From positions 1 to 64,000 of the forward strand of contig JAOQAG010000051.1 in the NCBI GenBank assembly GCA_025963715.1: DNA of 64,000 bases. The letters are read 5' to 3'. Both the position numbers and the translations under genes were made by a program. This stretch comes from Bacteroidota bacterium. Lineage in GTDB: Bacteria > Bacteroidota > Bacteroidia > 2-12-FULL-35-15. Of the stretch, positions 19,847-59,551 are shown piece after piece. A model generated the notes under the pieces. That model saw nothing but the letters and a program-made list of their open reading frames with translations, searched no databases and was not told where the DNA came from. How positions within the stretch are numbered: position 1 is the stretch's first letter; each line of letters starts with the position of its first letter.

Positions 19847-19872
19847 AGTAAAGTTTTTGTTTTAGTCTATAA

Positions 19873-20137: not shown

Positions 20138-20154
20138 AATGATTTAAAATAATA

Positions 20155-20284: not shown

Positions 20285-20292
20285 AAATAATA

Positions 20293-22554: not shown

Positions 22555-22581
22555 TGGTTTTTATTTGGGTTTTCTATATAA

Positions 22582-22589
22582 CAAATATA
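22582..22589 (-). promoter_or_regulatory. -7 element, 753-aa collagen-like gene
   Basis: Minus-strand TATATTTG, 28 nt upstream of the ATG at 22554. Confidence 0.55.
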
Positions 22590-22611
22590 AAAAAATAACG
22601 GCACAAAAAAG

Positions 22612-22642
22612 AAAAGCCACCAATAATAAATTGGTGGCTTTT
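22612..22642 (-). terminator. Terminator of the 390-aa/84-aa pair
   Basis: Perfect 12-bp stem AAAAGCCACCAA/TTGGTGGCTTTT with a 7-nt loop and a T-rich 3' end on the minus strand. It starts 23 nt after the stop of the 84-aa gene. Confidence 0.8.
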
Positions 22643-22665
22643 ATGCTGATGGAAAGGTGTTTTAT

Positions 22666-22920
22666 TTATTCCGGTTTTTTTCGCCCGCTTGTTGTTTTTT
22701 CTTCTCCTGCGGCGGGAACCGCCTGTTGTTGCGGTGCCGGATCGGTGCTTGCATTTTTACTCATCGAAACCACTTTTTGTGTTGCCGGATGTTCGGCTGC
22801 GGTGGTATCGTTTTTTGCCGGTTCGGACGCAGGTGTTTTTCCTGTTGTAACAGCAGTTTGTGCAAGCCCTAAAAGGGTAAAACATGCAAACGAAAGTGTG
22901 ATGATTAATTTCTTTTTCAT
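22666..22920 (-). CDS. Small secreted hypothetical protein (paired with collagen-like gene)
   Basis: 84 aa. Signal peptide MKKKLIITLSFACFTLLGLAQ, then a disordered Thr/Pro/Ala/Lys-rich chain ending TTSGRKKPE. It starts 4 nt after the stop of the 390-aa collagen-like gene, so translation is likely coupled; a terminator follows. It resembles the 96-aa protein at 15316-15606 in size, composition and gene order, though alignment outside the leader is weak (shared TGK, DTT/NDTT-like and TP/P-rich patches). No known family is recognised. Confidence 0.65.
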   Translation of the reverse strand: MKKKLIITLSFACFTLLGLAQTAVTTGKTPASEPAKNDTTAAEHPATQKVVSMSKNASTDPAPQQQAVPAAGEEKTTSGRKKPE

Positions 22921-22924
22921 GTTT

Positions 22925-30567: not shown

Positions 30568-33500
30568 TTATTTTACAATGCTCACATGCCCGAAATAATC
30601 ATGGGCGTTTCCACGGTAATCCCTGGTTTTGACTTTCCAGACGTATACGTCGATCTGTGCAATGTTGGTGCCTCCGTTGGCTTTTCCATCCCAGCCTTTG
30701 TTCACGTCGGTGGTTTTATAGATCATGTTGCCCCAACGATCGAAGATCTCCATTTCAAAATCATCCGGGTTGATGCCTACACCTGTAACCATAAACATGT
30801 CGTTTAATCCGTCGTGGTTATTTGGTGTAAATGCGTTTGGTGCATAAAACACGTATTCCGGAACCACTTCCACATTGTTGTAAGCGGTATCGCTACAGCC
30901 GTAGCTGTTGGTTACTACCTGCTGCACTACATAAATACCGGTATCCGGGTAGGAGAAGCTGGTGTTTTGCAGCGTGTCGGTATAAAACCCGTTTGGAATT
31001 GGTGACGTGTAAACAAAATCCCAATGCCATTGGTTGGCGCCCAGCGACTGATCTGTGAAGCTTACCAGCGGCGTGGTAGACGTTGCCGGTGACGTGGATG
31101 TAAATCCTGCGGTAGGTGCAGGGTACACATCTATAAAGCCGTTATTGGTTACGGACGATACACAACCGAGGGCCGTTGTAACGGTAAGTGTTACGTTATA
31201 GGCTCCGGATACGGTGTACAGGTGCGATGTAACAGCTCCTGTTCCTGTGCTGCCGTCGCCGAAATTCCATGCATACGTTACGCCGATGTTGCTCAGGGCT
31301 GTAAACTGTGCGTTAAAATCCTCACAACCTGCAGTATCTGCTGCGGTAATAAAGGATACTGCCAGCGGATGAACAATAACAGTGGATACATCCGTGATGG
31401 AGATCGAGCAGCCTCCGTCGTTAGCAGTAACAGTATAATCTGCCGGAGAAGCGCCAATTCCCGGGCTCACCGTTTGCGATTGTCCGTTTACGCCATTGCT
31501 CCAGGAGTACGTGTACGGCCCGCCTGTTCCGCCGGAAGCAGAAGCAGAGATCAGTACGGAACTGCCATCACATACAGTGGTATCGCTGGCATGCACCTGG
31601 ATCTGCGGATTCACAAATACAGTGGTAGTCTGGTTTGTAGAAATACAGCCGTGTGCATCTGTTGCAACAACGGTATAACTTGTTGTTGTAATAGGGTTTA
31701 CCGTTGTTGGGCCTGCGCCTGTTACTGTTGCAGGGTTCCAAACGTATGTGTAAGGCGCTGTTCCACCGTATCCAACTGCGTAGATCTGGCTCAGCTGTCC
31801 GATACAAATGGTATCCGTAGGGCTTACGATCACTTGCGTGATTGCTGGTTCGGAGAATGAGATCACACCTTGTACCGTGCAATGGTTGGCATCTGAAACC
31901 GTAACGGTGTACGTTCCTGCCGTAAGTGCTGTTGCTGTTTGTGTGATCTGTGCACCGGTTCCCGACCATAAGTAGGAATACGAAGGTGTACCGGCATTAG
32001 CAATTACAGTAGCGGTTCCGGTAGGAGTGCCGTTACAAAGCGGTTCGGTGTAAGTAATGTTGCTGATCACAGGGCCTGCAATATCCGATACGGTGGAGCT
32101 GGAGCTGGCGGTACAGCCGTTGTTATCGGTAACGGTAACGCCGTATACACCGGCGGCAACGTTGGTGATGATGGCCGTGGCGCTGCTGCCCGGTGTCCAC
32201 AGATACGTATATAACGGAACTCCGCCCGCTACTGTAACACCGGCGCTTCCATTGCTGTTGCCGCAGGTGCTTGGGTTGGAGTTAGGCGTAAGTACCAGTG
32301 CTGCCGGTTCGGTGATCTCGAAGATCGAGGTTTTCGAACAGCCGTGTGCATCGGTTACAAGCACGGTATAAGTTCCGGAAGTTAAGTTGGTTACCAACGG
32401 TCCGGAGCCTACGTTTGGTGTCCAGGTATAGGAATAACCCGGTGAGCCGCCTGCAACTACAATACTGATAGATCCGTTGTTACCGGCGTTACAGGTTACG
32501 TTGGTGGATGCAACCAGGGTTACGTTTAATGCAGCAGGTTGTGTTAATGTAGCTACACTCTGGCTGGTACAGCCGTTTGCATCGGTAACGGTTGCTGTAT
32601 ACGATTGTGCACACAGTCCGTTTGCGGTGGTGGTGGTTTGTGTGGCACCGTCGTTCCATAAGTAAGTATACGGTGTGGTTCCGCCGCCTGCAAGCACTGT
32701 GGCTGTTCCGTCGCAGGACAGGTTACAGCTTACATTGGTGGTAGCAACAACGGTGCTTACCAGTGTAGCAGGTTCGCTGATGGTAACGGAAGATGATCCC
32801 GTACAACCTGCTGAATCGGTTACGACCATTGAATAAATGCCGCCCGATAAGCCGTTGATGAATGCCGTGTTTTGTGCGCCCGGCAACCAGTTGATGGTGT
32901 ATGGTACAATACCACCGCTGATGCTGCCCTGTGCACTACCGTTGGCTGCACCAAAGCAGGTTACGTTTGTGCTGGTTGGGATGGTTACTACCGGAGCGTT
33001 GATATCGTTCACGTTGGCTACGTTGGTAACACTACAGCCATGTCCATCGGTAATGGTGATGGTATATGCACCTGCATTTAATCCATATGCGCAGCTGGTG
33101 GCCTGTGTTCCGGGGTCATTCCATGAGTATATGAACGGAGGACTGCCGCCTACGATGGCGGAGCAGGCACTACCATTTGCCGTTCCACAATTGGAATTGG
33201 TAGTGGTGGTGGTTACTGCAAGCAATGTTGGTTGTGTAATAGCTACGGATGCGTTGGCTGTACATCCGTGCGAATCGGTTACGGTTAAGCTGTGAACGCC
33301 TGCACACAAGGCTGTTGCCGTTGGTGTGGTGATCAGCGACGGTGTCCATAAGAATGTGTACGGGCCGGTGCCGCCGTTGTACACTGCTGTTGCCTGCGCA
33401 TCACAAGCATTATAGCAGGTCACATTTGTATTGGTGATGGATGCTGTTAATGCATTTGGTTGTGTGATGGTAACAATGGCAATGGCTGTACATCCATTTG

Positions 33501-36500
33501 CATCGGTAACTGTTACGGTGTAGGTATCGGCACATAAGTTATTTACGGATGCGCCTGCTGTTCCGCCCGGCATCCAGTTGAAGCTGTATGGAGCAGATCC
33601 GCCGGTAACGCTTGCTTGTGCAAAACCGTCGCATGCATTGTAACAGGTTACGTTGCCGGACGAAACAATGGAAGCCGTCATAGCATTCGGTGTTGTAACC
33701 GTAGCACTTGCTGTGGCCGAACATCCGTTTGCATCGGTTACCGTTACGGTATAGTTACCAGCGCATAAGCCGGTTGCCACTTGTGTGGTTTGTGCATTGA
33801 TGTCGTTCCAATGGTACGTGAACGGGCCGGTTCCTGTTGTTGGGTTTGCCGTTGCTGTTCCGTTGCACAATCCGTTGCAGGTGATGTTGGTTGCTGTGGT
33901 ACTTGCAGTAACTGCAGCCGGGTTGGTAAGGAGTACGTTGGTTTGGTTGGTACAGTTGTGTGCATCGGTTACCAATACGGTATAAGATGCTGCTCCTAAT
34001 CCGGTTACGTTTTGGGTGGTAGCGCCTCCCGGTGTCCAGGAATAGGTATACGGAGTTGTTCCGCCCGTGCTGTTGGTACTGATGGTTCCATCGGTAGCAC
34101 CGTTACAGCTTGGGTTTGTAAATCCGTAAGTGGTAGTCAGCACAGCCGGTTCGGTGATCACCGCCGAGGTGGATGCCACACATCCGTTTACATCGGTTGC
34201 TGTTAATGTATACGTTCCTGCAGGCAAATTAGTAGCGCTTGGAAGCGTCTGGCCGTTGGTCCATACAAATGTATATGGGTTGGTGCCGCCGCTGATAAGT
34301 ACTGTGGCACTACCATCGCTTAAGCCGTTGCAGGAAACATTGTTGGTTGCAAAAATGGAAGCAACCGGTCCTGCAAGGTTATCAATGGTTACAGACAATG
34401 TTTGCGTACAGCTGTTGCCATCCGTAACGGTTACCACATATGTGTTGGAAGCCAAACCTGTTGCTGTTGCTGTGTTTTGAACCGGTGCTGTGCTCCATGA
34501 ATACGTGTATGGGCCTACGCCACCGGCAACGTTTACGGTTGCGCTGCCATTTGACTGGTTACAGTTTGCATCCACATGCGTGGAGGTAAGCGTCATTCCG
34601 GTTGGTTGTGTAATGGCGGTGCTTGCTGTTTTGATACAACCGTTGTTGTCGGTGATGGTGCAGGTGTATGTGTTTGCAGCAAGGTTCACAGCGGTTGGTG
34701 TAGTTTGTCCGCCCGGTGTCCACATGTATAAATACGGAGGAGTACCGCCCGCAGGTGTTGCTGTGGATGTTCCATTTGCTCCGGTGAAGCACGATACGTT
34801 TGTATTTGCAAATGTATTGGTGATGATGGTCGGTTGTGTGATCACCGTGCTTGCCATAGCAATACAGCCATTGCCATCGGTAACGGTTACAGAATAAGTT
34901 CCCGGCGCTAAACCGGTTGCTGTAACAGTTGTTTGGCTGGATGGCGTCCATGCATACGAGAAGGATGGTGTTGCGCCTGCACCCATGGATACGGTTGCCG
35001 ATCCGTCGTTAGCGCCTGTACAGGTTACATTGCTGCTGGAGGAGATGGTCGCGTTTCCGCCTGCATCTGCACCTACTGTAATGTTTGCTGTTTGCGTACA
35101 TCCGTTAAAATCAGTAACCAGTACCGAATAATTTCCGGCGATGACGTTGCTTGCGGTTGGGGTTATTTGTCCGCCCGGCGCCCATAAGTAGCTATACAAA
35201 GGTGTAGCGCCTGCTGCAACCACCGTTGCCGAACCGTTTGCAGCGGTACAGATGGCGTTGGTAGCGGATGTTGTTAATGTTAATGCTGTTGGCTGTGTGA
35301 TGGTAACCGGTACGGTAACTGTACATCCGTTTCCATCTTTTATCACCACCGGATGCGACCCGGCGTTGAGTCCGGTGAATGTTGCACTTGCTCCAAATGT
35401 GCCTCCATCAACAGAATAGCTGTATGCAGGAGTAGTACCGCCGCTTGCGCTTACAGTAACAGCTCCGGTGCTGGCGCCAAAACAGTTGATGTTGGTTTGT
35501 GTAGCAATCACACCTGCAAGTAACGATGGTTCGGTGATGGTAACCGGTATCGGGAATGTACATCCGTTCCCGTCTTTTGCAGTGATAGTATATGTACCGG
35601 CTGCTAATCCGCTAAATGTTCCGCTTCCGCCAAATGCGCCTGCATTAAATGCATAGCTGTATGGTGCGGTAGATCCGGATGCTGTAACGGTAACGCTTCC
35701 GTTCGTTCCTGCATTACAGCTTACGTTGGTCTGCGCTGTAACGGATGCTGTTAATCCGCTCAGGTCGATAATGGTAGCAGATGAGGTGAATGTACAACCG
35801 TTTGCATCTTTCACGATTACGCTATAGGTATTTGCCAGCATGCCGCTGTAAGTGGTGGTTGCGGTAAACGGACTGCCATTTACGGAATACGTATAAGGAG
35901 AAGTTCCGCCGGTGGTTGTACCAATGGTAATACTACCGTTGGCACCGCCGCAGGTAGAATTGGTTACTGTTGTAGCTACGGCTGTAGGCCCCGGAATGTT
36001 GGTAATGGTAGCGCTTGTAGTAAATGTACACAGGTTGGCATCCTGTACAATTACCGGGTATGTTCCTGCTGCTAAGCCCGGATAGCTGGTGGTTGCCGTA
36101 AAGCCGCCACCGTTAAAAGAATACAGATATGTTGCAGTACCGCCGGTTGTTAAGCCCACGTTCACTGTTCCGTTTGCATTTCCACAGGTAGAGCTGTTTG
36201 TTGTAACTGCCAATCCTGTTGGGCCGGGCGTGTTGGTAATGTTTACGCTGGTAGTGAATGTACATCCGTTTGCATCTTTCACTACAATGCTGTAAGCACC
36301 TGCAGCAAGTGATGTATAGGATGTGGTAGCTGTAAATGCACTGCCATTGAATGAATAGAGGTAAGCCGGTGTTCCGCCTGTCACTGTTCCAATCGCCACA
36401 GCGCCGTTACTGTTACCGCAGGTGGTGTTTGTAATGGTTGTTGCCACAGCCGTAGGCCCCGGTACATCAATGATAGTAGCTGTTGTAGTAAATGTACAAC

Positions 36501-39500
36501 CGTTCGCATCTTTTACCACGATGTTGTAAGTGCCTGCAACCAATGCTGTGTAACTGGTGGTTGCTGTAAATGCACTTGCGTTTACAGAGTAAATATACGT
36601 TGCTGTACCGCCTGTAACCGCGCCAATTGTTAATGTTCCGTTAGCCGCGCCGCAGGTGGTATTTGTTGCGGTTACTGCTAAAGCGGATGGTCCCGGAATA
36701 TTGGAGATGGTAACAGAAGTAGTGAATGTACAACCATTTGCATCTTTCACGATCACGGCATACGTTCCTGCTGCCAAGCCGGTGTAAGCGGTAGTTGTTG
36801 AGAAAGGCGCGCCGTTAAATGAATAGGACAATGGCAATACGCCGCCGGTGGTTGCACCGATGGTGGCTGTACCGTTACTGTTTCCGCAGGTTGCATCGGT
36901 TTGTGTGAGCGCTAAAGCTGTTGGTCCGCTGGAGTTATTTACAATTGCGCTGGTGGTAAACTGGCAACCGTTTGCATCCTGCACAATTACGGGATACGTG
37001 TTAGCTGCTAATCCTGTATAAGAAGTAGTGGCTGCAAATCCGCCTCCGTTGAAGGAATACGTGTATGCAGCAGTTCCGCCGGTGGTTGCACCAATGGTGG
37101 CTGTTCCGTTGCTCGATCCGCAGGAAGAATTGGTAGTAGTGGTTGCTAAAGCAGTTGGGCCGGGTGTATTGGCAACTGTTCTGTTTACCGTAAACTGGCA
37201 ACCGTTGGCATCCTGCACAATTACTGGATAGGCACCTGCGGCTAATCCGGTATAAGAAGTGGTAGCTGTAAATCCGCCTCCGTTAAAAGAATACGTATAA
37301 GCCGGTGTTCCGCCGGTAGTGGCACCAATGCTGATCACACCATTGCTGTTACCGCAGGTGGAGTTGGTTATCGTAGTTGCTAAAGTCGTAGGCCCAGGTG
37401 TGTTTGTCAATACCGCTGATGTGGTAAATGTACAACCGTTTGCATCTTTCACAATGACCGGATACGTTCCGGCTGCTAAACCGCTGTAGGTGGTGGTGGT
37501 TGTGAACGGGCTGCCGTTGAATGAATACGAGTATGCCGATGTTCCGCCGGTTACTGTTCCCAGTACGACTGATCCGTTGCTGTTACCGCAGGTAGTATTT
37601 GTTAATGTTGTTGCAATGGCTGTTGGCCCCGGTACATCAATAATGGTAGCTGTTGTAGTAAATGTACAACCGTTTGCATCTTTTACTACTACGTTGTAAG
37701 TGCCTGCTACTAAAGCGGTGTAGCTCGTTGTCCCAGTAAATGCACTTGCGTTTACAGAATACGTGTAAGTAGTTGTTCCGCCTGTAACCGCACCTATTGT
37801 TAATGTTCCGTTAGCCGCGCCGCAGGTGGTGTTGGTGGATGTTACCGCTAATGCCGTTGGCCCTGCAATGTTTGCAATGGTTACAGAGGTAGTAAATGTA
37901 CATCCGTTTGCATCTTTCACGATCACGGAGTAGCTTCCGGCTGCCAGTGCAGTATAGGAAGTAGTAGTAGAGAAAGGCGAACCGTTGAATGAATAGGATA
38001 ATGGCAATGCGCCTCCGGTAGTTGCACCAATGCTGGCTGTACCGTTTGTGTTTCCGCAGGTTGCATCAGTATGTGTAACGGTCAGGCCGATAGGGCCGCT
38101 GGAATTGCTGATGATGGCGGTGGTTGTAAACTGACAGCCGTTTGCATCCTGCACAATTACAGGGTAGGAGTTGGCGGCTAAACCTGTGTAAGTTGTTGTT
38201 GTAGAAAAACCACCTCCGTTAAATGAATACGTGTAGGATGCTGTTCCACCGGTAGTTGTACCGATGGTAGCACTACCGTTGCTCGCTCCGCAGGAAGCGT
38301 TGGTGGTAGTGGTTGCCAAAGCAGTTGGGCCTGGTGTGTTGGCAACTGTTCTGCTAATTGTGAATTGGCAGCCATTTGCATCCTGCACAATGATCGGGTA
38401 TGTACCTGTCGCTAATCCCGTATAAGAAGTAGTAGCAGTAAATCCTCCTCCGTTGAAGGAATAAGTATATACAGGTGTTCCGCCGGTGGTAGCGCCAATG
38501 GTAATTCCGCCGTTGCTGTTGCCGCAGGTCGAATTAATAATGCTGGTTGCTAAAGCAGTTGGTCCAGGTGTGTTGATTAATATTGCCGATGTAGTGAATG
38601 TACAACCGTTTGCATCTTTTACGATGATCGGATACGTTCCTGCTGCTAATCCACTGTACGTAGTGGTTGCAGTAAACGGACTGCCGTTGAATGAATACGT
38701 GTATGCCGATGTTCCGCCGGTTACTGTTCCCAGCACAACCGATCCGTTGCTGTTGCCGCAAGTGGTATTTGTTAAGGTGGTTGCGATGGCTGTTGGTCCC
38801 GGAACGTTAATAATGGTAGCTGTTGTGCTGAACTGGCAACCGTTTGCATCTTTCACGATCACGGTATACGTTCCTGCTGCAAATGCAGTGTAGGAAGTAC
38901 TTCCGGTAAACGGGCTTCCGTTCACAGAATACGTGTATGCCGCTGTACCGCCTGTAACTGCACCAATGGTAATGGTTCCGTTGCTTGCGCCGCAGGTTGC
39001 ATTGCCGGTTGTAAAGGCAAGCGCCGTAGGCCCTGTTGTAGGGTTTACAGTTGCAGTAGTAGAAAAGGTACAACCGTTTGCATCTTTCACGATCACTGTG
39101 TAAGTGCCCGCTGCAAATGAAGTATAGCTTGTAGCTGGAGCAAATGCACTGGCATTCACCGAATAGGTATAAGAAGGAACGCCGCCTGTAACCGCACCAA
39201 TAGTAATGGTTCCGGTACTTGCACCGCAGGCTGCATTGGTTGTATTTACTACTAAAGCAGTAGGCCCGGTGGAGTTATTTACAGTGGCTGTGGTGCTGAA
39301 TGTACATCCGTTTGCATCTTTAATTACAACCGGATATGTATTTGCAGGTAAGCCGGTATAGCTTGTGGTAGTGGTAAACGGACTACCATTCACCGAATAT
39401 GAATACGGTAATGTTCCGCCTGTTCCCGCACCAATCGTAATGCTTCCGTTGCTTGCTCCGCAGGATGCGTTGCCTGTGGTGGTTGCTACAGCCGTAGGTC

Positions 39501-42500
39501 CCGGTACGTTTGTGATGGTTCTGCTGCCGGTAAACTGGCAACCGTTCGCATCCTGAACAATAATAGGATAAGTACCCGCTGCTAAGCCTGTATAGGCAGT
39601 TGTAGCTGTAAATCCACCCCCGTTAAATGAATATGTGAACGGACCAACGCCGCCTGTTGTTGCACCAATGGTAATCGTTCCGTTGCTGTTTCCGCAGGTT
39701 GGGTTGGTAAAGGAAGTTCCCAGTGCAGTTGGTCCCGGAGTGTTTGCAACGGTTCTGTTAACAGTAAACTGACAACCGTTTGCATCCTGAACAATGATCG
39801 GGTAAGATCCGGCCGCTAAGCCGGTATAAGAAATAGTGGCCGTGAACGGGCTGCCGTTAAATGAATATACATACGATGGCGTTCCGCCGGTGGTAGCACC
39901 AATAGTAATGGTTCCGTTTGCATTACCGCAGGTGGAATTACCGGGTGTGGTTGCCAGTGCTGTGGGACCTGCTGTATTTGCTACGATCGCCGATGTGGTG
40001 AATGTACAACCGTTTGCATCTTTCACGATCACGGTATACGTACCTGCACCAAAGCCGGTGTAGCTGGTTGTTGTTGTAAACGGACTTCCATTTACAGAAT
40101 ATGTATAAGCAGGTGATCCGCCGGTTACCACACCGATATTGATCACGCCGTTTGCATTGCCGCAGGTGGAATTAACCGTGCTGGTTGCCAATGCTGTTGG
40201 CCCGGGCGAATTGATTATGGTTGCTGTGGTGCTGAATGTACATCCGTTTACATCTTTTACGATCACGGTATACGTTCCTGCTGCCATTGATCCGTAAGTG
40301 GTTGTGGTAGTAAACGCACTTGCATTTACCGAATAGGTATAAGCAGGTGATCCTCCTGTAACCGCGCCAATCGTGATCACACCGTTGCTTGCGCCGCAGG
40401 TGGAATTTGTAGTTGTAGTTGCCAGTGCCGTAGGCGCCGCATTGGATCCTACTGTCACGGAAGTACTGAACGTACAACCGTTCGCATCTTTTACAATTAC
40501 GGTATACGTTCCCGAAGCAAGTGTTGTATAGGAAGTAGTGGAGGTGAACGGACTGCCGTTGAATGAATATGTATAAGCAGCAACGCCACCTGTAACTGCA
40601 CCAATGGTGGCTGTTCCGGTAGACGATCCGCAGCTTGCATTGGTGGAAGATACTGCCAGTGCTGTTGGCCCGCTTGCATTATTGATGGTTGCCGATGTAG
40701 TGAATGTACAGCCGTTTGCATCTTTTACAACTACGGAATACGTACCTGCTGCAAAGCCTGTATAAGAGGTAGTTGCTGTAAATGCACCGCCGTTCACAGA
40801 ATACGTGTAAGTTGAAGTTCCGCCTGTAACTATACCAATGGTAATGGTTCCGTTGCTCGATCCGCAGCTGGAATTTGTAACGCTGGTAGCCAGTGCCGTA
40901 GGTCCCGGTACGTTTGTAACCACTACCGAAGTAGTGAATGTACAACCGTTCGCATCTTTTACGATCACGCTGTAAGTGCCCGCTGCTAAAGATCCGTAGG
41001 TGGTAGTGGCTGTAAACGGACTACCGTTAAATGAATATACATACGCCGCCGTACCGCCTGTTGTAGCGCCAATGGTAACGCTTCCGTTGGATCCGCCGCA
41101 GGTTGCATTTACGTGTGTAGTAGCCAGTGCGGTAGGTCCGGGTGTATTTACGATCGTTGCCGATGTAGTGAATGTACAACCGTTTGCATCTTTTACAATA
41201 ATGGTGTATGTGCCTGCTGCCAATGATCCGTAAGTGGTGGTTGCTGTGAATGCGCTTGCATTTACAGAATACGTGTAAGGAGCTGTACCGCCTGTAACTG
41301 CGCCAATGTTAATGGTTCCGTTTGCATTTCCGCAAGTGGAGTTAACGGTGGTAGTCGCTAAAGCCGTAGGTCCCGCCGAGTTGCTGATGATAGCGGAAGT
41401 AGTAAATGTACAACCGTTTGCATCTTTCACGATCACGGTATAGGTTCCTGCCGCCATTGATCCGTAAGTGATGCTGGTGGTAAACGCGCTTGCATTCACA
41501 GAATAGGAATAAGGAGCTGTACCGCCTGTAACTGCGCCAATGTTAATGGTTCCGTTGCTGGCGCCGCAGGTGGAATTAATAGTTGTTGTTGCCAAAGCGG
41601 TTGGCCCCGCTGTGTTTACCACTGTAATAGAAGTGGTGTACGTACATCCGTTCACATCTTTTACAACTACGGAATAGGTACCTGCAACCAGGCCTGTGTA
41701 GCTTGCTGTGGAAGAAAAAGCGCCGCCGTTAAATGAATAGGTATAAGCAGGTGATCCGCCTGTGGTAACCCCAATGCTTACGGTTCCGTTACTGGCGCCG
41801 CAGGTGGAATTGGTAGATGTTACTGCCAGTGCTGTAGGGCCGCTGGAGCTGCTCACCGTGATGGATGTAGTATAAGTACATCCGTTTGCATCTTTTACAA
41901 CCACCGTGTATGTTCCTGCTGCATAGCCTGTATAAGCGGTGGTAGCTGTAAACGGACTACCATTTACGGAATATGTATACGGCGCTGTTCCGCCTGTAAC
42001 CACACCCAGTGTAATGGTTCCGTTGCTCGATCCGCAGGTGGCATTGGTATGCGATCCTGCCATGGCTGTTGGACCCGGTGAGTTTGCAACGTTAGGATTT
42101 ACTGTAAATGCACATCCGTTTGCATCGTGCACGATCACCGTGTGTGCGCCCGATGATAATCCTGTGTAGCTGGTTGTTGTTGTAAATCCGCTTCCATCCA
42201 GTGAATACGTGTAAGGTGCAGTTCCGCCGGTTGTTGCACCGATGTTGATTACCCCGTTGCTGTTACCGCAGGTTGCATTTGTTGTGGTTGTTGCCTGTGC
42301 TGTTGGTCCGGCCGAGTTTGCCACCGTTGCCGAAGTTGTAAATGCACATCCGTTTACATCGTGTACAATTACCGAATAAGTTCCTGCTGCAAATCCAGTG
42401 TAACTTGTGGTGGTTGTAAATCCGCTTCCGTTTACGGAATAGGTGTATGGTGCTGTTCCACCGGTAGTAGCGCCAATGTTAATGGTTCCGTTTGATCCGC

Positions 42501-45174
42501 CGCAGGTTGCATTTACCGTTGTGGTTGCTTGTGCGGTAGGGCCTGTAGATGTTGGCACCGTAACCGTTGTGGTAAACTGGCAACCGTTTGCATCCTGTAC
42601 AATCACGGTATGGCTTCCTGCTGCTTGTCCTGTATAGGAAAGTGTTCCGGAAAATCCGCCGCCGTTTACCGAATAGGTATACGGCGCTGTTCCGCCTACA
42701 CCGCTTGTAATAGTTATGGTTCCGTTACTTGCGCCGCAGGTTGCTGCTGTAGTGCTGGATGTTAATCCTGTTGGAGGCGGGTAAATAGTAATATTGGAAG
42801 TGGTAGTAGAAGTACAACCACCCGTTGCAGTAACAGTGTGTGTTACTGTGTAAGTTCCTGCCGGTGAAAATGTAACACCCGTAGGGCTTACTGCCGCAGA
42901 GGATGCCGGAGTTCCGTTGGGGAAGGTCCAGGTTTGCGATGCACCGCTTACGCCCGTATTGGTAAAGGTAAATGAGTTGCCCGTTAAACACTGGTTTGCC
43001 GATTGTGTGTAAGTGGATGTCGGTTGCGGGTTAACAGTAATGGTGTACGTTATGGGTGTTCCTGTGCAGCCTGTAAGTGTTGGCGTTACCGTAATGGTAG
43101 ACGTGATTGGGCTGGCTGTGGCATTGGTTGCTGTAAATGAGGGAACAGAAGTTATTCCACTGGTTGCCAATCCAATAGCGCCATTGGAATTGGTCCAGGC
43201 AATGGTAGCTCCGGCAGGTGTGCTGGTAAAAGTTTGTGCCGCAATTGTTGCTCCGGCGCAGACTGCAATATTGCTGGGTGGGGTGATCACCGGTAAAGGA
43301 TTCACAACCACTGTAGTAGTAGCCGTACAGTTTACAGCGCCATTGGTTACTGTAACGGTGTACGTTCCTGCCATTGCGGCTGTAGCACCTGTTCGTGTAG
43401 GATTTTGAGCGGTAGAGGTAAATCCTCCCGGCCCGGCCCAGCTATAGGTTCCACCGCCGCCACCGTTCAGCTGAATTGTTCCTCCGGCACAATAGGCACC
43501 GGTATTGGTAGCTGTAGGGTTACATGTATTACAAGGTGCGGGTGCCGTATAAGGCTGCGTAAGCATACAGGTGGCATCGGCCGAAAAGCCTGCAGTAAGG
43601 GTACATCCGGCACCGGTAGATGTTAAGCCAGGCAATGTATAGTTGATCGGGCTTACCCATGGGCTGGGAATGGTAACGCTTCCACCGCAGCTGCTGCTTA
43701 CGGTAAGTGTTCCGCTTGTCGGCGGATATTGAAATGTGATCTGTCCGGTTACGGAATACGTATTGGTAGCAGGTACGCAGGCACCCGGTGTTGCCGTTAG
43801 CGCCGTCATGTTACATAATACATTACAGTTGGTGGTAGCGGCTCCGGCACTGTTGGTAAATGTGATCGTTCCTGCCTGGTTGGAATAGTTGGTAAGCAAA
43901 AGAATGTAAAACTGGCCTGTGGTTGCTCCGGTAATATCGGCATCTTCCTGGGCGGCGATCGAATAACTGCAATCCACATTTGGGGCAGTGCCCGCTTGTA
44001 TGGCTGCACAACCCGCAGCTTGTGAAGTAAATGGCCCCCAAAGGTTAAAATCCACATCAATCCCGGTTCCACCTGCATTTGTTTGCGAAATGTGGATCGT
44101 TAAATTTCCCGGGTTCTGGATCTGCATAAAATACCACACCGGATTTGGTGTTAAGATAAGGCAGTTGATGGTTCCTAAGCTGGGCTGCCCGGTATTGTTA
44201 GGAAAAGTATAGGTTGTACCGGTACAAAACGGGTTGGCCGAAGCACATATATCTCCCGGGCCCGGAGGCGGTGGCGTGATCACACAGATAGTAAATGCAG
44301 GTGTAGTGGTAGTTGTGCTGCTGTAATCGTACACACGTACCCAGTAGGTAGCTCCAACGGTAAGCCCGGAGATCTGATTGCTTCCGGCGGCTCCATAAGG
44401 GTAAGAAGCATCGTTACAGTTAATGGTAGTAAGTGCACCGCAGGCAGTTCCCGAAAAAACCTGGACCACAGGATCCATGCTTGCTCCCGGAGTAACGTTG
44501 ATCTGTTGGGTTGTTGAAGCGGCTACAAACGAATACCACACATCGTCTTCGGCAGTACCAAGGCATCCGGCAAGGGATTGTGTTGCTCCGGCCACTGTTC
44601 CCGATGTAGGCGTACAGGTTGTTGCTGTTGCACTCAGGGAAATAGCACCGCAGGCATTGTCATTAGCTGGCGGTGGCGGAGGTGTAGTGATACAGATCCC
44701 GAAGGTTCCCGTTCCTGAAGTGTATTTCCAAAAACGCACATAATAGGTTGCTCCCGCTGTTAAGCCTGTTTGTGTGATCTGCGACATGGTCCCGATCGCG
44801 TCATCATTACAGGCGATCGACGTTGGTGTTGCACATGGGCCGGAGTATAAGCCCATACCGCTATCTGTGATTGTTCCTGCCGATGAGGTGATGATCACCG
44901 ATCCGCCTGAAGGAGCAACAAAGCTGTACCAAACATCGGGCGCACCCGGTAATGCACAACTAGGTGTGCCGCCATTGGCTGCATTATTTTGATAGGTTGC
45001 ACCCACGGTGGTTCCGTTGGTTACGGTACATACACCGGCGGTATTAACCGTTAAGGCTGTAGCTGTACAGGGTGTATTGCCCTGCGCATGCAATAGATTT
45101 GCTCCGGAAAAAAGAAGGCCGGAAAAACAAAGAACAATTTTCAGTAAAAAAAGAGAGTAGCGATTTGATTTCAT
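30568..45174 (-). CDS. Giant SprB-repeat T9SS type B surface protein (4868 aa)
   Basis: Signal peptide 1-30 (ending NLLHAQ). The N-terminus has two PPC/lectin-like domains (PDVWYSFVAPSGG, DDVWYSFVAAS), then the CTGTTYTFPNNTG domain shared with the 3025- and 998-aa paralogues. One TGTLTVSSSCGG module, one Ig-like and one PKD-like module follow. The core has 47 SprB-type modules: 30 of exactly 78 aa (GPTALATTTTNSTCGxSNG ... YTYSVNGSPFT ... VIVKDANGCTFTTSA), then 17 more divergent ones with TNVTCNGxxDG and PYTYLWxxG motifs. Each carries two conserved Cys. PKD domains (YAWNFGDGSTGTG) and a CHU_C T9SS type B sorting domain (YAPNAFTPNNHDGLND, FDRWGNMIY) end the chain. SprB of Flavobacterium is a mobile gliding adhesin; this architecture suggests a long surface filament adhesin. 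The 142-aa gene lies 52 nt upstream. Confidence 0.9.
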   Translation of the reverse strand: MKSNRYSLFLLKIVLCFSGLLFSGANLLHAQGNTPCTATALTVNTAGVCTVTNGTTVGATYQNNAANGGTPSCALPGAPDVWYSFVAPSGGSVIITSSAGTITDSGMGLYSGPCATPTSIACNDDAIGTMSQITQTGLTAGATYYVRFWKYTSGTGTFGICITTPPPPPANDNACGAISLSATATTCTPTSGTVAGATQSLAGCLGTAEDDVWYSFVAASTTQQINVTPGASMDPVVQVFSGTACGALTTINCNDASYPYGAAGSNQISGLTVGATYWVRVYDYSSTTTTTPAFTICVITPPPPGPGDICASANPFCTGTTYTFPNNTGQPSLGTINCLILTPNPVWYFMQIQNPGNLTIHISQTNAGGTGIDVDFNLWGPFTSQAAGCAAIQAGTAPNVDCSYSIAAQEDADITGATTGQFYILLLTNYSNQAGTITFTNSAGAATTNCNVLCNMTALTATPGACVPATNTYSVTGQITFQYPPTSGTLTVSSSCGGSVTIPSPWVSPINYTLPGLTSTGAGCTLTAGFSADATCMLTQPYTAPAPCNTCNPTATNTGAYCAGGTIQLNGGGGGTYSWAGPGGFTSTAQNPTRTGATAAMAGTYTVTVTNGAVNCTATTTVVVNPLPVITPPSNIAVCAGATIAAQTFTSTPAGATIAWTNSNGAIGLATSGITSVPSFTATNATASPITSTITVTPTLTGCTGTPITYTITVNPQPTSTYTQSANQCLTGNSFTFTNTGVSGASQTWTFPNGTPASSAAVSPTGVTFSPAGTYTVTHTVTATGGCTSTTTSNITIYPPPTGLTSSTTAATCGASNGTITITSGVGGTAPYTYSVNGGGFSGTLSYTGQAAGSHTVIVQDANGCQFTTTVTVPTSTGPTAQATTTVNATCGGSNGTINIGATTGGTAPYTYSVNGSGFTTTTSYTGFAAGTYSVIVHDVNGCAFTTSATVANSAGPTAQATTTTNATCGNSNGVINIGATTGGTAPYTYSLDGSGFTTTTSYTGLSSGAHTVIVHDANGCAFTVNPNVANSPGPTAMAGSHTNATCGSSNGTITLGVVTGGTAPYTYSVNGSPFTATTAYTGYAAGTYTVVVKDANGCTYTTSITVSSSSGPTALAVTSTNSTCGASNGTVSIGVTTGGSPAYTYSFNGGAFSSTASYTGLVAGTYSVVVKDVNGCTYTTSITVVNTAGPTALATTTINSTCGASNGTINIGAVTGGTAPYSYSVNASAFTTSITYGSMAAGTYTVIVKDANGCTFTTSAIISNSAGPTALATTTVNSTCGNANGTINIGAVTGGTAPYTYSVNASAFTATTTYGSLAAGTYTIIVKDANGCTFTTSATIVNTPGPTALATTHVNATCGGSNGSVTIGATTGGTAAYVYSFNGSPFTATTTYGSLAAGTYSVIVKDANGCTFTTSVVVTNVPGPTALATSVTNSSCGSSNGTITIGIVTGGTSTYTYSVNGGAFTATTSYTGFAAGTYSVVVKDANGCTFTTSATINNASGPTALAVSSTNASCGSSTGTATIGAVTGGVAAYTYSFNGSPFTSTTSYTTLASGTYTVIVKDANGCTFSTSVTVGSNAAPTALATTTTNSTCGASNGVITIGAVTGGSPAYTYSVNASAFTTTTTYGSMAAGTYTVIVKDVNGCTFSTTATIINSPGPTALATSTVNSTCGNANGVINIGVVTGGSPAYTYSVNGSPFTTTTSYTGFGAGTYTVIVKDANGCTFTTSAIVANTAGPTALATTPGNSTCGNANGTITIGATTGGTPSYVYSFNGSPFTATISYTGLAAGSYPIIVQDANGCQFTVNRTVANTPGPTALGTSFTNPTCGNSNGTITIGATTGGVGPFTYSFNGGGFTATTAYTGLAAGTYPIIVQDANGCQFTGSRTITNVPGPTAVATTTGNASCGASNGSITIGAGTGGTLPYSYSVNGSPFTTTTSYTGLPANTYPVVIKDANGCTFSTTATVNNSTGPTALVVNTTNAACGASTGTITIGAVTGGVPSYTYSVNASAFAPATSYTSFAAGTYTVIVKDANGCTFSTTATVNPTTGPTALAFTTGNATCGASNGTITIGAVTGGTAAYTYSVNGSPFTGSTSYTAFAAGTYTVIVKDANGCQFSTTATIINVPGPTAIATTLTNTTCGNSNGSVVLGTVTGGTSAYTYSFNGSPFTATTTYSGLAAGTYPIIVKDANGCTFTTSAILINTPGPTALATSIINSTCGNSNGGITIGATTGGTPVYTYSFNGGGFTATTSYTGLATGTYPIIVQDANGCQFTISRTVANTPGPTALATTTTNASCGASNGSATIGTTTGGTASYTYSFNGGGFSTTTTYTGLAANSYPVIVQDANGCQFTTTAIISNSSGPIGLTVTHTDATCGNTNGTASIGATTGGALPLSYSFNGSPFSTTTSYTALAAGSYSVIVKDANGCTFTTSVTIANIAGPTALAVTSTNTTCGAANGTLTIGAVTGGTTTYTYSVNASAFTGTTSYTALVAGTYNVVVKDANGCTFTTTATIIDVPGPTAIATTLTNTTCGNSNGSVVLGTVTGGTSAYSYSFNGSPFTTTTTYSGLAAGTYPVIVKDANGCTFTTSAVLTNTPGPTTLATTITNSTCGNSNGVISIGATTGGTPAYTYSFNGGGFTATTSYTGLAAGAYPVIVQDANGCQFTVNRTVANTPGPTALATTTTNSSCGSSNGTATIGATTGGTAAYTYSFNGGGFAATTSYTGLAANTYPVIVQDANGCQFTTSAIVNNSSGPTALALTQTDATCGNSNGTATIGATTGGVLPLSYSFNGAPFSTTTAYTGLAAGTYAVIVKDANGCTFTTSVTISNIPGPSALAVTATNTTCGAANGTLTIGAVTGGTATYIYSVNASAFTATTSYTALVAGTYNIVVKDANGCTFTTTATIIDVPGPTAVATTITNTTCGNSNGAVAIGTVTGGTPAYLYSFNGSAFTATTSYTSLAAGAYSIVVKDANGCTFTTSVNITNTPGPTGLAVTTNSSTCGNANGTVNVGLTTGGTATYLYSFNGGGFTATTSYPGLAAGTYPVIVQDANLCTFTTSATITNIPGPTAVATTVTNSTCGGANGSITIGTTTGGTSPYTYSVNGSPFTATTTYSGMLANTYSVIVKDANGCTFTSSATIIDLSGLTASVTAQTNVSCNAGTNGSVTVTASGSTAPYSYAFNAGAFGGSGTFSGLAAGTYTITAKDGNGCTFPIPVTITEPSLLAGVIATQTNINCFGASTGAVTVSASGGTTPAYSYSVDGGTFGASATFTGLNAGSHPVVIKDGNGCTVTVPVTITQPTALTLTTSATNAICTAANGSATVVAAGATPLYSYLWAPGGQITPTASNVIAGNYSVLVTDFNGCTQTANITVGADAGGNATISSSSNVTCTGANDGSATVSMGAGATPSFSYAWTPSSQTTVTATGLAPGTYSVTVTDGNGCIAMASTVITQPTIITNTFANTNVSCFTGANGTSTATPAGGTPPYLYMWTPGGQTTPTAVNLAANTYTCTITDNNGCIKTASTAITQPTGMTLTSTHVDANCNQSNGSATVNVAGGVGPYTYSWSTAPVQNTATATGLASNTYVVTVTDGNSCTQTLSVTIDNLAGPVASIFATNNVSCNGLSDGSATVLISGGTNPYTFVWTNGQTLPSATNLPAGTYTLTATDVNGCVASTSAVITEPAVLTTTYGFTNPSCNGATDGTISTNSTGGTTPYTYSWTPGGATTQNVTGLGAASYTVLVTDAHNCTNQTNVLLTNPAAVTASTTATNITCNGLCNGTATANPTTGTGPFTYHWNDINAQTTQVATGLCAGNYTVTVTDANGCSATASATVTTPNAMTASIVSSGNVTCYNACDGFAQASVTGGSAPYSFNWMPGGTAGASVNNLCADTYTVTVTDANGCTAIAIVTITQPNALTASITNTNVTCYNACDAQATAVYNGGTGPYTFLWTPSLITTPTATALCAGVHSLTVTDSHGCTANASVAITQPTLLAVTTTTTNSNCGTANGSACSAIVGGSPPFIYSWNDPGTQATSCAYGLNAGAYTITITDGHGCSVTNVANVNDINAPVVTIPTSTNVTCFGAANGSAQGSISGGIVPYTINWLPGAQNTAFINGLSGGIYSMVVTDSAGCTGSSSVTISEPATLVSTVVATTNVSCNLSCDGTATVLAGGGTTPYTYLWNDGATQTTTTANGLCAQSYTATVTDANGCTSQSVATLTQPAALNVTLVASTNVTCNAGNNGSISIVVAGGSPGYSYTWTPNVGSGPLVTNLTSGTYTVLVTDAHGCSKTSIFEITEPAALVLTPNSNPSTCGNSNGSAGVTVAGGVPLYTYLWTPGSSATAIITNVAAGVYGVTVTDNNGCTASSSSTVSDIAGPVISNITYTEPLCNGTPTGTATVIANAGTPSYSYLWSGTGAQITQTATALTAGTYTVTVSDANHCTVQGVISFSEPAITQVIVSPTDTICIGQLSQIYAVGYGGTAPYTYVWNPATVTGAGPTTVNPITTTSYTVVATDAHGCISTNQTTTVFVNPQIQVHASDTTVCDGSSVLISASASGGTGGPYTYSWSNGVNGQSQTVSPGIGASPADYTVTANDGGCSISITDVSTVIVHPLAVSFITAADTAGCEDFNAQFTALSNIGVTYAWNFGDGSTGTGAVTSHLYTVSGAYNVTLTVTTALGCVSSVTNNGFIDVYPAPTAGFTSTSPATSTTPLVSFTDQSLGANQWHWDFVYTSPIPNGFYTDTLQNTSFSYPDTGIYVVQQVVTNSYGCSDTAYNNVEVVPEYVFYAPNAFTPNNHDGLNDMFMVTGVGINPDDFEMEIFDRWGNMIYKTTDVNKGWDGKANGGTNIAQIDVYVWKVKTRDYRGNAHDYFGHVSIVK
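31850..35757 (-). repeat. Array of 17 divergent SprB modules (4868-aa protein)
   Basis: Seventeen units of about 230 bp with TNVTCNG-like starts. They match one-to-one and in the same order the 17 units of the 3025-aa paralogue. Confidence 0.82.
35758..42775 (-). repeat. Array of 30 homogeneous SprB units with a 234-bp period
   Basis: Counted from the translation as 30 consecutive units, each starting GPTA(L/V/I/Q); total length divided by 30 gives 234 bp (78 aa). ACAACCGTTTGCATC recurs once per unit. Within it, 36460-37629 and 37630-38799 are homologous five-unit blocks. Confidence 0.88.
36460..38799 (-). repeat. Five-unit higher-order duplication (2 x 1170 bp)
   Basis: Units 18-22 (37630-38799) and 23-27 (36460-37629) correspond pairwise, for example both first units read GPTAIATTLTNTTCGNSNG and both fifth units CGAANGTLTIGAVTGG. 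The start positions of units 18, 23 and 28 (38799, 37629, 36459) are spaced exactly 1170 bp. Confidence 0.85.
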
Positions 45175-45879: not shown

Positions 45880-46360
45880 CCCCAATTTGCTTGGAGTTTT
45901 GATCTAACCAGGCTGTTTTTGCTATATGAACCGATAAACCAATTCTGTGTATTGGAATGTGGATCAAAAATAATTTTTATGATGTGCAATGAGCCGGTAA
46001 ACTAATCCTGTGTATAGGAACACAGATCAAAAATGATTTTTATGATGTAAAAGATCGCCTGTGGCGCTTATGATTTTTTTATGATCTGATTTTAGTACAA
46101 ATCTATCAACTTGCTTATGTGCGTCGTCACGCACAATAACACACAGCAATGAAATCACCATTAAAGACGATGTTCACCCGGGTAGACGCTTTTGGCCTTG
46201 TTCAGTAATAGCGGTAAAAAATCGCCCCGTGATCAATATTGAGAAAAGTAACATTTAATAGTATCAAATGAAGGGATGATATATACTGGCGATTATTTAT
46301 CCGTGGTTGTCAGGCCACGCCAGTGGCAGGACAAATTACCTTACAAGGCTAAAAGGTTTT

Positions 46361-46523
46361 TTGTTACTTTTTGGCCGCCAAAAAGTAAGAAGATAAAAAT
46401 GAATAGAAATTCTGAATGTGTACAAAATCATACCGCCGAAGTCCTGTGTATCGGAACGCGGATCAAAAATGATTTTTATGATGTAAAAAAGATCGCCTGT
46501 GGCGCTTATGATTAAATTATGAT
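46361..46523. repeat. 163-bp direct repeat, copy A
   Basis: It begins TTGTTACTTTTTGGCCGCC, with the palindrome ACTTTTTGGCCGCCAAAAAGT, and ends ATTAAATTATGAT. It differs from copy B at 46812-46975 by one substitution and one inserted A. Confidence 0.88.
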
Positions 46524-46811
46524 TTGATTCTACTACTAATTTATAATACAGGTATTAAATTGTAAACTGATTACACATAGTAATACAAAGTAATAGAATC
46601 ATAATTAAAAACGATACTCACCCGGGTAGACGTTTTTGATCTTGTGCAGCAATAGCGGGAATGATCGCCGGGCGCATGTTTCCGAAACAAAATCATATTT
46701 CCAAATATATCAAATCAGTGTCGAGAATTAATTGGCGATCATTAGCCGCGGTTCTTCTGAGCGAGAGCGGAAGAAGAAATTGCCTTACAAGATCGTCCCG
46801 CACGTGCGGGA

Positions 46812-46975
46812 TTGTTACTTTTTGGCCGCCAAAAAGTAAGAAGATAAAAATGAATGGAAATTCTGAATGTGTACAAAATCATACCGCCGAAGTCCTGTGT
46901 ATCGGAACGCGGATCAAAAATGATTTTTATGATGTAAAAAAAGATCGCCTGTGGCGCTTATGATTAAATTATGAT
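46812..46975. repeat. 164-bp direct repeat, copy B
   Basis: Second copy of 46361-46523, 451 bp downstream, same orientation, nearly identical. Confidence 0.88.
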
Positions 46976-56343: not shown

Positions 56344-59340
56344 TTATTCTACGATTGTTACATGTCCAAGTAATTTTTTGTGTTTGCCTTTCAGATCTTT
56401 ATAGCTGATTTTGTATACATATACGTCCTGTTGCACCAGATCCCCGTGATTGTTCATCGCCCCGTTCCATCCTTCATACAGGTTGTTTGTTTTTAAAACC
56501 CGGTTGCCCCAGCGGTCGAAGATCAGCATCTCAAAATCATCGGGTGAAACCCCGTGTGAGCTGATATTAAAAACATCATTATTTCCATCGCTGTTAGGTG
56601 TAAATGCATTTGGAATATAAATGGTGGAAATATCATTGATCACCACGTAATTTGTTGCAGAATCAATACAATTACCAATTCCGGATGCATACAGCGTTAC
56701 AGCGTAGGTTCCGATCTCCGGATAGGTATGCGCCGGGTTTTCAGAAATTCCATTGGTACCGTCCCCAAAATTCCAAAGCCAGAAAGTGGAATGGCCCGAA
56801 AGATTATGAAATTCAGCATTCGGGTTTAAAATATCAATTTCCGACGGGCTTATATAAAATGCTGCGTCCGGCTGAGGGTATACATTTACCATGCAAACAA
56901 TCGAATCGGTGGAAGAACATCCCGGGTAAAAGCTAGCCGTAAGTATTACAGTATGACAGCCATCAGCGGTATAATCATGCGCAATGCTGATACCTGTTCC
57001 GGTAGTGCCATCTCCAAAATTCCAGTCGTAGTAAGCGCCTGCATTGCCTGTTCCATCTGCAATAAAATGAGCAACCACGGGATTACAACCGCTTTGTACA
57101 TCGGATATAAAACTTACGGTTGGCGGAGCGGTGGTAGTTACGGTAGCAATTGCACTATCGGCACAGCCGGTGGAAGCTGCACCGTAAACAGTATAAGTAG
57201 CTGCTGTGCCGGGAACGGTAAGTGTTGTTGTGATTGCTCCGGTCGACCATAGATAATTTTGTCCGCCAGCAGCTGTAAGCGTAACGGGCATGCCTGCGCA
57301 GGTAACCGGCGAATTAACAGTTACTACAGGGTTCGGATTGATCGTAACAGCAGTTAATGAAGCGCTGGTACAAGGTATTCCACCCGGTACATTTACGGAA
57401 ACAGAATAGTTTCCTTCCATGGCCAGCGTTACACTGGTAAGCACCGGATTTTGCAAAGCAGATATAAATCCTGCCGGTCCGGTCCAGCTATACGTTGCTC
57501 CCGGTACTGTTGTAGCGGTAAGGTTTACAGTTTGTCCTTCACATGCCGGGCCTGTATTTCCGGCGGTAACCGGACATAAGGAACAGGAAGCAGGTGCAGT
57601 ATAACCTTGTGTAGCCGTACATCCGGCATCATCCGAAAAGGCTGCTGTTATTGTACAGGCCGCCCCGTCGGATGTAAATCCGGTAATGGTATAGGCCTGC
57701 GGGTTTGTTGTAAAAGGTGCGTTAAATGTTTGCGAAATGCCGCCGCAGCTGCTGGAAACTGTTAATGTTCCGGTAGAAGGTGCATTTACAAAGGTGACCA
57801 ATCCGCTTACTGCGTAATTATTTGTTGATGGATCGCAGGTGGATGGTACGGCCGTTAACCCGCTGATGGAGCAGGTGATGATACAAGGCGCCGGAGCGGT
57901 ATATGTTTGTGTGGAGGTGCAGGTAGCATCGGCAGAAAACACAGCGATGACGCTGCAGCTGGCACTGTTGGAGCTTAATCCTGTAAAGGAATATGCAGCC
58001 GGACTGGTGAACGGCGCGTTCAACACTATCGGTGTTCCGCCACAGGAGTTGGTGATCGTTAATGTTCCTGTTGTAGGCGCATTTACAAAATTCACATTCC
58101 CGTTTACAATGTATTGTTGTGTGAGGCTGTTACATGGAGTGGGCGTTGCCGTTACCGATGTAATGGCGCAGGTAATAGGGCAGGGTGCCGGTGCGGTATA
58201 GGCTTGTGTATAAGTACAGGCTGCATTTGCCGAAAATACTGCCGTGATGGAGCAGGCTGCGCTGTTGGATGTTAATCCTGTGAAGCTGAATGCAGCAGGG
58301 CTTGCGAACGGTGCGTTCAGCACTACCGGTGTTCCGCCGCAGGAATTGGTAATTGTTAATGTGCCTGTTGCAGGCGCATTTATAAAGGTTACAGAACCTC
58401 CGTTGATATCGTACAATTGTGTGGCGCTGTTACAAACGGGCGCTGTAAAAGAAATTCCGGAGATGGCGCAGGTAACCGTACAAGCCGGTGGCGCTGTAAA
58501 GTTGCTGGTATACGTACAGGCTGCATCGCCCGAAAAAACGGCGGTAACAGAGCAGGCAGCTCCATTGGATGGCAATCCTGCAAGGGTGTAGCTGGTGCTG
58601 CCAGCTGCAAAAGGCGCATTAAAAACCTGTGTGGCGCTATTGCAGCTGTTGGTTACCGTAAGTGTTCCGGTGGTGGGTGCATCGGTATAGCTGATGGTTC
58701 CCATTAACGGATAGGTATTGGTAGCAATATCACAGGCGCCTGTGAGCGCTGTTAAGCCGGTCATGTTACAAAGGATATTGCAATTGGTGGACCCGGCACC
58801 GGCACCTGTATTGGATTGTGAAAAGGTAATGTTGGAAGGTACATCGGCATAATTGGTAAGCATGAGCATATACCACTGGCCTGCTACAGCGGCCGGGATT
58901 CCACATACTTCAGATGCCGAACCCGAGAAGCTGCAATCCACAATGTTGCCGCTGCATCCATAATTGCTGGATAAAGGATTGCTTCCCGGCCCATTGCAAT
59001 CTCCGGTTAAACCGGTACAGGTAGAAACCTGGTCAGGGAAAGGTCCATAGCAGATAAAATCGACATCGTTTTGTGATCCGGAAGCATCCGCGCTGTTGAT
59101 ATTGATCACAATATCGCCGTTGCTACCCACCTGTAGAAAATACCAGGCAGGGTTGGGTTGGGAGCCAAGGCAGCCATAATCAGGACCGGTTTGTGCATTG
59201 GTGCCCCCGGTTGTAGCCGGAAAAGTATACGTGGAACCTGTACAAAAAGCATCTGCAGATGCACAGTCGGAACCTTGCGCTTGCAGTGTATAGTGCGTAG
59301 TTAAAAGAAACAGCAAAAAGAGAAAAGTAACTTTTTTCAT
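56344..59340 (-). CDS. T9SS type B surface protein with four TGTLT modules and PKD domains (998 aa)
   Basis: The start is the ATG at 59340 (MKKVTFLFLLFLL), giving a signal peptide ending YTLQAQ. An ATG seven codons upstream (59361) is possible but splits the leader. The N-terminal domain is SDCASADAFCTGSTYTFPATTG ... PAWYFLQVG, shared with the two SprB giants. Then come four tandem units of about 99 aa (DNA about 57590-58775) with the core TGTLT(V/I)xxSC, NAPF and TAPAPC motifs. An Ig-like unit (PACEGQTVNLTATT), PKD domains (YDWNFGDGTTGTG, WLWNFGDGTNG) and a CHU_C T9SS type B sorting domain (YIPNAFTPNSDGNND, FDRWGNRVL) follow. It is the first gene of the minus-strand locus and is divergent from mdh. 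Confidence 0.87.
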   Translation of the reverse strand: MKKVTFLFLLFLLTTHYTLQAQGSDCASADAFCTGSTYTFPATTGGTNAQTGPDYGCLGSQPNPAWYFLQVGSNGDIVININSADASGSQNDVDFICYGPFPDQVSTCTGLTGDCNGPGSNPLSSNYGCSGNIVDCSFSGSASEVCGIPAAVAGQWYMLMLTNYADVPSNITFSQSNTGAGAGSTNCNILCNMTGLTALTGACDIATNTYPLMGTISYTDAPTTGTLTVTNSCNSATQVFNAPFAAGSTSYTLAGLPSNGAACSVTAVFSGDAACTYTSNFTAPPACTVTCAISGISFTAPVCNSATQLYDINGGSVTFINAPATGTLTITNSCGGTPVVLNAPFASPAAFSFTGLTSNSAACSITAVFSANAACTYTQAYTAPAPCPITCAITSVTATPTPCNSLTQQYIVNGNVNFVNAPTTGTLTITNSCGGTPIVLNAPFTSPAAYSFTGLSSNSASCSVIAVFSADATCTSTQTYTAPAPCIITCSISGLTAVPSTCDPSTNNYAVSGLVTFVNAPSTGTLTVSSSCGGISQTFNAPFTTNPQAYTITGFTSDGAACTITAAFSDDAGCTATQGYTAPASCSLCPVTAGNTGPACEGQTVNLTATTVPGATYSWTGPAGFISALQNPVLTSVTLAMEGNYSVSVNVPGGIPCTSASLTAVTINPNPVVTVNSPVTCAGMPVTLTAAGGQNYLWSTGAITTTLTVPGTAATYTVYGAASTGCADSAIATVTTTAPPTVSFISDVQSGCNPVVAHFIADGTGNAGAYYDWNFGDGTTGTGISIAHDYTADGCHTVILTASFYPGCSSTDSIVCMVNVYPQPDAAFYISPSEIDILNPNAEFHNLSGHSTFWLWNFGDGTNGISENPAHTYPEIGTYAVTLYASGIGNCIDSATNYVVINDISTIYIPNAFTPNSDGNNDVFNISSHGVSPDDFEMLIFDRWGNRVLKTNNLYEGWNGAMNNHGDLVQQDVYVYKISYKDLKGKHKKLLGHVTIVE
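57590..58775 (-). repeat. Tandem array of four TGTLT modules, about 296 bp each
   Basis: Four in-frame units with conserved Cys pairs. A single copy of the same module occurs near the N-terminus of the 3025- and 4868-aa proteins. Confidence 0.8.
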
Positions 59341-59551
59341 GTGGTATGCAATTGAATTCAAAAATGTGGTTATAAAAATAATAAAAACTTGAAAATATCA
59401 AAATAGCTAAGTCCTGTTTAAAAGTATGATTTTTATTTGATTAGCTATTAAAAGGGATGAAAAAAGTGCGTTTTAAGTTGCATCGGTTTTTAAATTGTTA
59501 GTAATTGTGAATTCTGTTGAAAAAAAACATTCCGGATATAGGTTTCTTTCC

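Follow-up and report, generated by a model that had tools for sequence, protein, structure and literature searches.

A giant SprB-repeat T9SS type B surface protein of a Bacteroidota bacterium, with cysteines that probably staple neighbouring modules

In Bacteroidota, giant proteins of the SprB type are the drivers of gliding and attachment, and possibly of the capture of prey, while the way in which load is borne by chains of thousands of residues is unsettled. The question is raised by P0001, a protein of 4868 residues encoded in the window analysed here, i.e., a stretch of 64,000 nucleotides of the contig JAOQAG010000051.1 (assembly GCA_025963715.1, genome G000), in which each of the repeated modules carries two cysteines: with which partners are these cysteines bonded? 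An earlier note on this DNA had described 47 SprB-type modules in the largest gene of the window and had suggested a stiff, disulfide-stabilised rod, by implication with the bond inside each unit. The open reading frame was recovered exactly, from ATG to stop, on the minus strand, which the note had left out, and it is the largest one in the window. The SprB assignment of the repeats was likewise confirmed, with PF13573 matching 39 stretches at an E-value of 1e-266 (860 bits against a curated cut-off of 28). The curated cut-offs were also exceeded by PKD, CHU_C and TIGR04131, the latter being the T9SS type B sorting domain with 44.1 bits against the NCBIfam cut-off of 35.

From the N to the C terminus, P0001 consists of a signal peptide, a jelly-roll-like head, Ig-like domains, 48 SprB modules, PKD domains and the T9SS sorting domain (Table 1), which amounts to about 54 modules (three Ig-like, 48 SprB and three Ig/PKD). 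Pfam places a galactose-binding-like domain close to the N terminus. The model of the head reached a pLDDT of 65.5, with weak matches to jelly-roll, CBM and CUB-like folds, and on the strength of this model a binding head is probable. In its own genome, which holds 57 type B sorting domains, 17 PorP/SprF genes and at least 150 SprB matches, the protein belongs to an ordinary family; P0001 is thus an ordinary-family, but very large, member of the known SprB-repeat T9SS type B adhesins.

Table 1. Features of P0001 and of the neighbouring type B genes, in positions of the window
Feature	Position	Strand	Basis
Whole gene P0001, 4868-aa SprB-repeat T9SS type B surface protein	30568..45174	minus	ORF; Pfam SprB, PKD_4, CHU_C, GBD_T9SS_assoc
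Signal peptide region, residues 1-30, probable cleavage before Q of ..LLHA|QGN	45085..45174	minus	inferred by reading the sequence
N-terminal head, residues 37-450: two GBD_T9SS_assoc-like domains and a third domain common to the paralogue	43825..45066	minus	PF23759, 2 stretches; alignment; low-confidence jelly-roll-like model
Ig/PKD-like domains preceding the array, residues 555-798, Cys layout as in SprB modules	42781..43512	minus	phmmer to GhpA shaft, E 3.6e-99; Cys walk
30 SprB modules, each exactly 78 aa, residues 799-3138	35761..42780	minus	Cys-pair scan; identity analysis; units 24-27 modelled with AlphaFold
18 divergent SprB modules, residues 3139-4530; extra Cys pair in several of them	31585..35760	minus	Cys-pair scan; Cys walk
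Ig/PKD domains preceding the sorting signal, residues 4531-4777; in the last one FG Cys present, AB Cys absent	30844..31584	minus	PKD_4; Cys walk
T9SS type B C-terminal sorting domain (CTD), residues 4778-4865, without Cys	30580..30843	minus	TIGR04131; PF13585
Tandem paralogue P0002, 3025 aa; 26 SprB modules by the scan, of which 12 belong to the 78-aa kind; C-terminal layout as in P0001	47175..56252	minus	
Neighbour P0003, T9SS type B protein with PKD-like repeats, 1813 aa	24186..29627	minus	
Neighbour of 1005 aa, a T9SS type B protein containing PKD domains	56344..59361	minus	

The paralogue P0002 is located upstream of P0001 and has its third head domain in common with it, and the two divergent module series pair one to one. 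The C-terminal 93 residues of the 1005-residue neighbour are 49% identical to those of P0001, and the type B CTDs of the window are generally alike (44-75%). The same strand carries, at 15615-24097, four adjoining genes of 585, 803, 753 and 390 residues with collagen-like GXX repeats (PF01391). Between the two giant genes (45926-46970) lies an interspersed repeat, about 75-110 bp long, which has 44 matches in the genome.

The units of P0001 were counted by a scan of the translation for cysteine pairs within a spacing window. The scan found 47 of them, the first 30 all of 78 residues with a Cys-Cys distance of 52, and the following 17 mostly of 75-79 residues with distances of 50-53, so that the two cysteines do stand at fixed places, as had been claimed. 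One more unit, near residues 4383-4432 between the 46th and the 47th, fell outside the spacing window of the scan, and therefore 48 modules is a better count than 47, with 18 instead of 17 divergent ones. The description of the first 30 as nearly uniform holds for their length; it fails for their sequence, with a mean pairwise amino acid identity of 0.65 (range 0.46-0.94), a nucleotide mean of 0.65 as well, and 13 invariant columns out of 78, both cysteines included.

The possibility of a misassembled array, either collapsed or chimeric, is brought up by the draft state of the genome (51 contigs) and by the orthologous arrays of two sister species, G010 and G019, which stop at contig ends at nearly the same unit (L129 at the end of G010:C7 and L141 at the start of G010:C5; L130 at the end of G019:C34). 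However, the longest exact repeat within the gene, 47 bp, is shorter than the ordinary short-read length, which makes a collapse unlikely, and the mean nucleotide identity between units points the same way. Furthermore, the identity of the P0001 units to their counterparts at the same position in G010 is 0.815, against 0.655 for units at other positions, with the best match at the same position in 14 of 18 cases; an artefact is accordingly rated as most improbable, and the order of the units as old and kept. The same was found for the paralogue and its G010 counterpart (0.830 against 0.547; best match at the same position in 11 of 12). The ends of the broken sister contigs are joined by no long exact repeat, and the middle of the array in G010 and G019 may differ. 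Inside P0001, a block of five units occurs twice (units 18-22 and 23-27; nucleotide identity 0.815, dS 0.92, dN 0.06), and these distances indicate that the duplication is old. Recent amplification of the array, or its concerted evolution, was considered and rejected, because units at equal positions in P0001 and in the sister species resemble each other more than units within the gene do, and because of the age of this block.

The AlphaFold model of four consecutive units (24-27) represents, with a mean pLDDT of 95.8, a chain of seven-stranded beta sandwiches, in which C15 is situated between the strands 3-11 and 20-29, and C67 between the strands 55-62 and 68-75, i.e., after strand A in the AB loop and before strand G in the FG loop, respectively. 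Domains of the FN3/Ig fold have one of these loops at either pole. From the strand order and this rule, the two cysteines of one module are placed at opposite poles, so that the prediction for consecutive units sets them, by topology, far apart. In the Foldseek search with the four-unit model, the best matches were eight entries of GhpA, the grappling hook protein of Aureispira sp. CCB-QB1 (PDB 9FLP, 9FLS, 9FLU, 9FLV, 9FLW, 9FLX, 9FLY and 9G8B), with E-values from 1e-12 to 5e-11; VIA-align gave Z of 10.6-11.7 for GhpA and 10.8 for fibronectin type III. GhpA was the best sequence match as well, over the Ig-like region and the C terminus, and residues 559-825 of P0001 matched it by phmmer with an E-value of 3.6e-99, whereas a single-domain query of 90 residues did not reach GhpA. 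In the aligned GhpA stretch the cysteines occupy the same two loops (LCEGDRV, LDGCITD, TICEGTS, QGCNSD). The suggestion of a rod of linked modules is thus supported by the model and by the matches to the GhpA shaft, which is the closest solved structure.

The relatives of P0001 provide the pattern by which the wiring may be read. Both cysteines are kept in 1490 of 1509 modules, and the exceptions are mostly at the array ends, these end cases coming from few gene families and being not all independent. In the first module directly after the signal peptide, the AB cysteine is present and the FG cysteine absent in 13 of 13 module-like cases found by cysteine spacing, several of which are close relatives, so that the independent events are fewer than 13. 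They include a protein of Roseivirga pacifica (L073), three small proteins of the present genome (L157), and PKD-type proteins from Chitinophagaceae as well as from other lineages; a further first module with the AB cysteine only was found in L085. Three apparently rule-breaking first modules (L009, L088_m1662 and L092_m386) were dropped by eye, their sequences not being module-like. At the other end, the last domain before the CTD carries the FG cysteine in all 60 non-redundant type B proteins, with no other cysteine in 41 of them and only two others in six more; among the exceptions are three proteins in which this domain has a cysteine in the AB position (L036, and L064 twice), and others have odd extra cysteines. 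With the FG cysteine in none of 14 first modules and in 1500 of 1509 modules, Fisher's test gives a p of 2e-28, which ignores kinship, and the pattern is preferred over this value.

The same order is observed within single chains. The walk along the cysteines of P0001 from residue 562 gave 53 AB and 54 FG cysteines in strict alternation, and under a rule in which the AB cysteine of a module is bonded to the FG cysteine of the next one, those without a partner are the first FG cysteine (616) and one extra cysteine (3505). For the small protein L157_p8240 of the same genome, all array cysteines are accounted for by this rule. The three paralogous SprB/PKD proteins of that locus (L157, G000:C10:26000-38000) look like minimal, fully paired cases. 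The joint loss of cysteines was also considered as a test of pairing. As a positive control, the extra cysteines at positions 19 and 53 co-occur with a phi of 0.82 within a module against 0.37 between neighbours; the co-loss of the two main cysteines gave a phi of 0.19 inside the module and about 0 between neighbours, internal losses being too rare for the test, which was replaced by that at the array ends.

Three wirings may be weighed against these observations. A disulfide inside each unit, as first implied, with the stiffness derived from module packing, agrees with the retention of both cysteines in nearly all modules and with the spacing of exactly 52 residues in the uniform units. However, it would have to span the two poles of the module, and it leaves one conserved cysteine unpaired in every first module and in nearly every last domain, thus explaining neither array end; this wiring is considered very unlikely, and of the earlier proposal of a disulfide-stabilised rod the part that survives is the rod, with its bonds moved from the units to the joints between them. 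Bonds between the nearest cysteines in sequence, FG of module n and AB of module n+1, would have the shortest spacing, constantly 26 residues in the uniform array, but first modules with the FG and without the AB cysteine are then predicted, which is the opposite of what was found, and the conserved FG cysteine of the last domain is left partnerless, since the CTD of P0001 has no cysteine; such bonds are highly improbable. The bond from the AB cysteine of module n to the FG cysteine of module n+1 explains both ends. This pairing between modules, which is what the present analysis adds, appears well supported by the cysteine patterns, and a rod stapled in this manner at the cell surface, with an N-terminal head and a C-terminal anchor, is regarded as the probable arrangement of P0001. 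Its extension to a general rule for SprB-repeat and PKD-type T9SS proteins, perhaps including GhpA, is modestly favoured. In the literature searched, outside of which the GhpA paper itself lay, nothing relevant was found on such a bonding rule or on inter-domain disulfides in these adhesins.

According to the arrangement proposed, the signal peptide would direct the chain to the periplasm, and the type B CTD through the T9SS. The C terminus would then be retained at the outer membrane by a carrier of the PorP/SprF type, the gene of which lies elsewhere in the genome, while the rod of about 54 Ig-like modules would project outwards with the jelly-roll-like binding head at its far N-terminal end. 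Each module would present its AB cysteine at the C-terminal pole and its FG cysteine at the N-terminal one, so that every joint would be stapled, with 53 staples in P0001 and 33 in the paralogue, and a second cysteine pair would be closed inside some of the divergent modules. An Ig-like module is usually 3.5-4 nm long, and about 54 modules would extend to roughly 0.2 micrometres. The orthologous giants in other genomes (L132 and L133 in G009, L134 in G033, L136 in G006, L137 in G026; that of G006 of about 5500 residues) have the kind of stalk in common but differ in the N-terminal head that it carries, and such variation of the head with the stalk kept is as would be expected of an adhesin with exchangeable tips. 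In this respect, P0001 may be compared with the periscope proteins, i.e., surface proteins that vary in length via near-identical repeats: it resembles them by its long repeat stalk with an N-terminal head, and differs in that its units are only 65% identical and are conserved by position between species.

As to the role of the rod, P0001 is similar to SprB, the gliding adhesin of Flavobacterium johnsoniae with 6497 residues (PMC9870892, PMC9143113), in its features, namely SprB repeats, a type B CTD, giant size and the T9SS as the route of secretion. That P0001 is the gliding adhesin of its own organism, moved by the GldJ/GldK track as SprB is, would agree with these repeats and this CTD, and with SprA, GldM and GldJ, all of which score above their cut-offs in this genome; GldM exceeds its curated cut-off at two loci, on the contigs C18 and C29. 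Unlike SprB, however, P0001 lacks a sprF-like carrier gene next to it: the 17 PorP/SprF genes of the genome are all outside the window, and the surroundings of the orthologues in four related genomes (G003, G009, G010 and G033) yielded none either. Other large SprB-repeat genes of the genome, on C29 and C16, adjoin PorP/SprF genes and are better candidates, so that the gliding role is rather doubtful and motility is only a candidate function of P0001. Another possibility is a lateral association of the chains into a multimeric appendage comparable to the grappling hook of GhpA, whose assembly is heptameric (PMC13319060). It is suggested by GhpA being the best match both of the four-unit model and of the sequence, P0001 being likewise a rod of Ig-like modules. 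However, P0001 consists mostly of SprB modules, the N-terminal region of GhpA (about 1,100 residues, before position 1138 or so) has no significant match in it, with negative scores, and module folds in common do not imply multimers; such an appendage is decidedly unlikely.

The situation with the carrier resembles that of the orphan substrates of F. johnsoniae, Fjoh_1123, Fjoh_1720 and Fjoh_4934, which also have type B CTDs without a neighbouring sprF-like gene, use one common carrier and have CTDs more than 44% alike (PMC12618676). Since the type B CTDs of the window resemble each other too, one carrier common to its type B proteins is likely. Disulfides of envelope proteins have been shown in F. 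johnsoniae (PMC12635249). In the genome G000, which is 98.5% complete, no match to DsbB or VKOR was found, yet more than 50 bonds are predicted per chain of P0001, which poses the question of the oxidant; hundreds of disulfides are predicted in the surface proteins encoded by this genome as a whole.

Stapling of every joint, if true, would make the filament resistant to bending and to slippage of its modules, and responsive to reducing conditions. The staple rule also lets the order and the ends of such arrays be read from the sequence alone.
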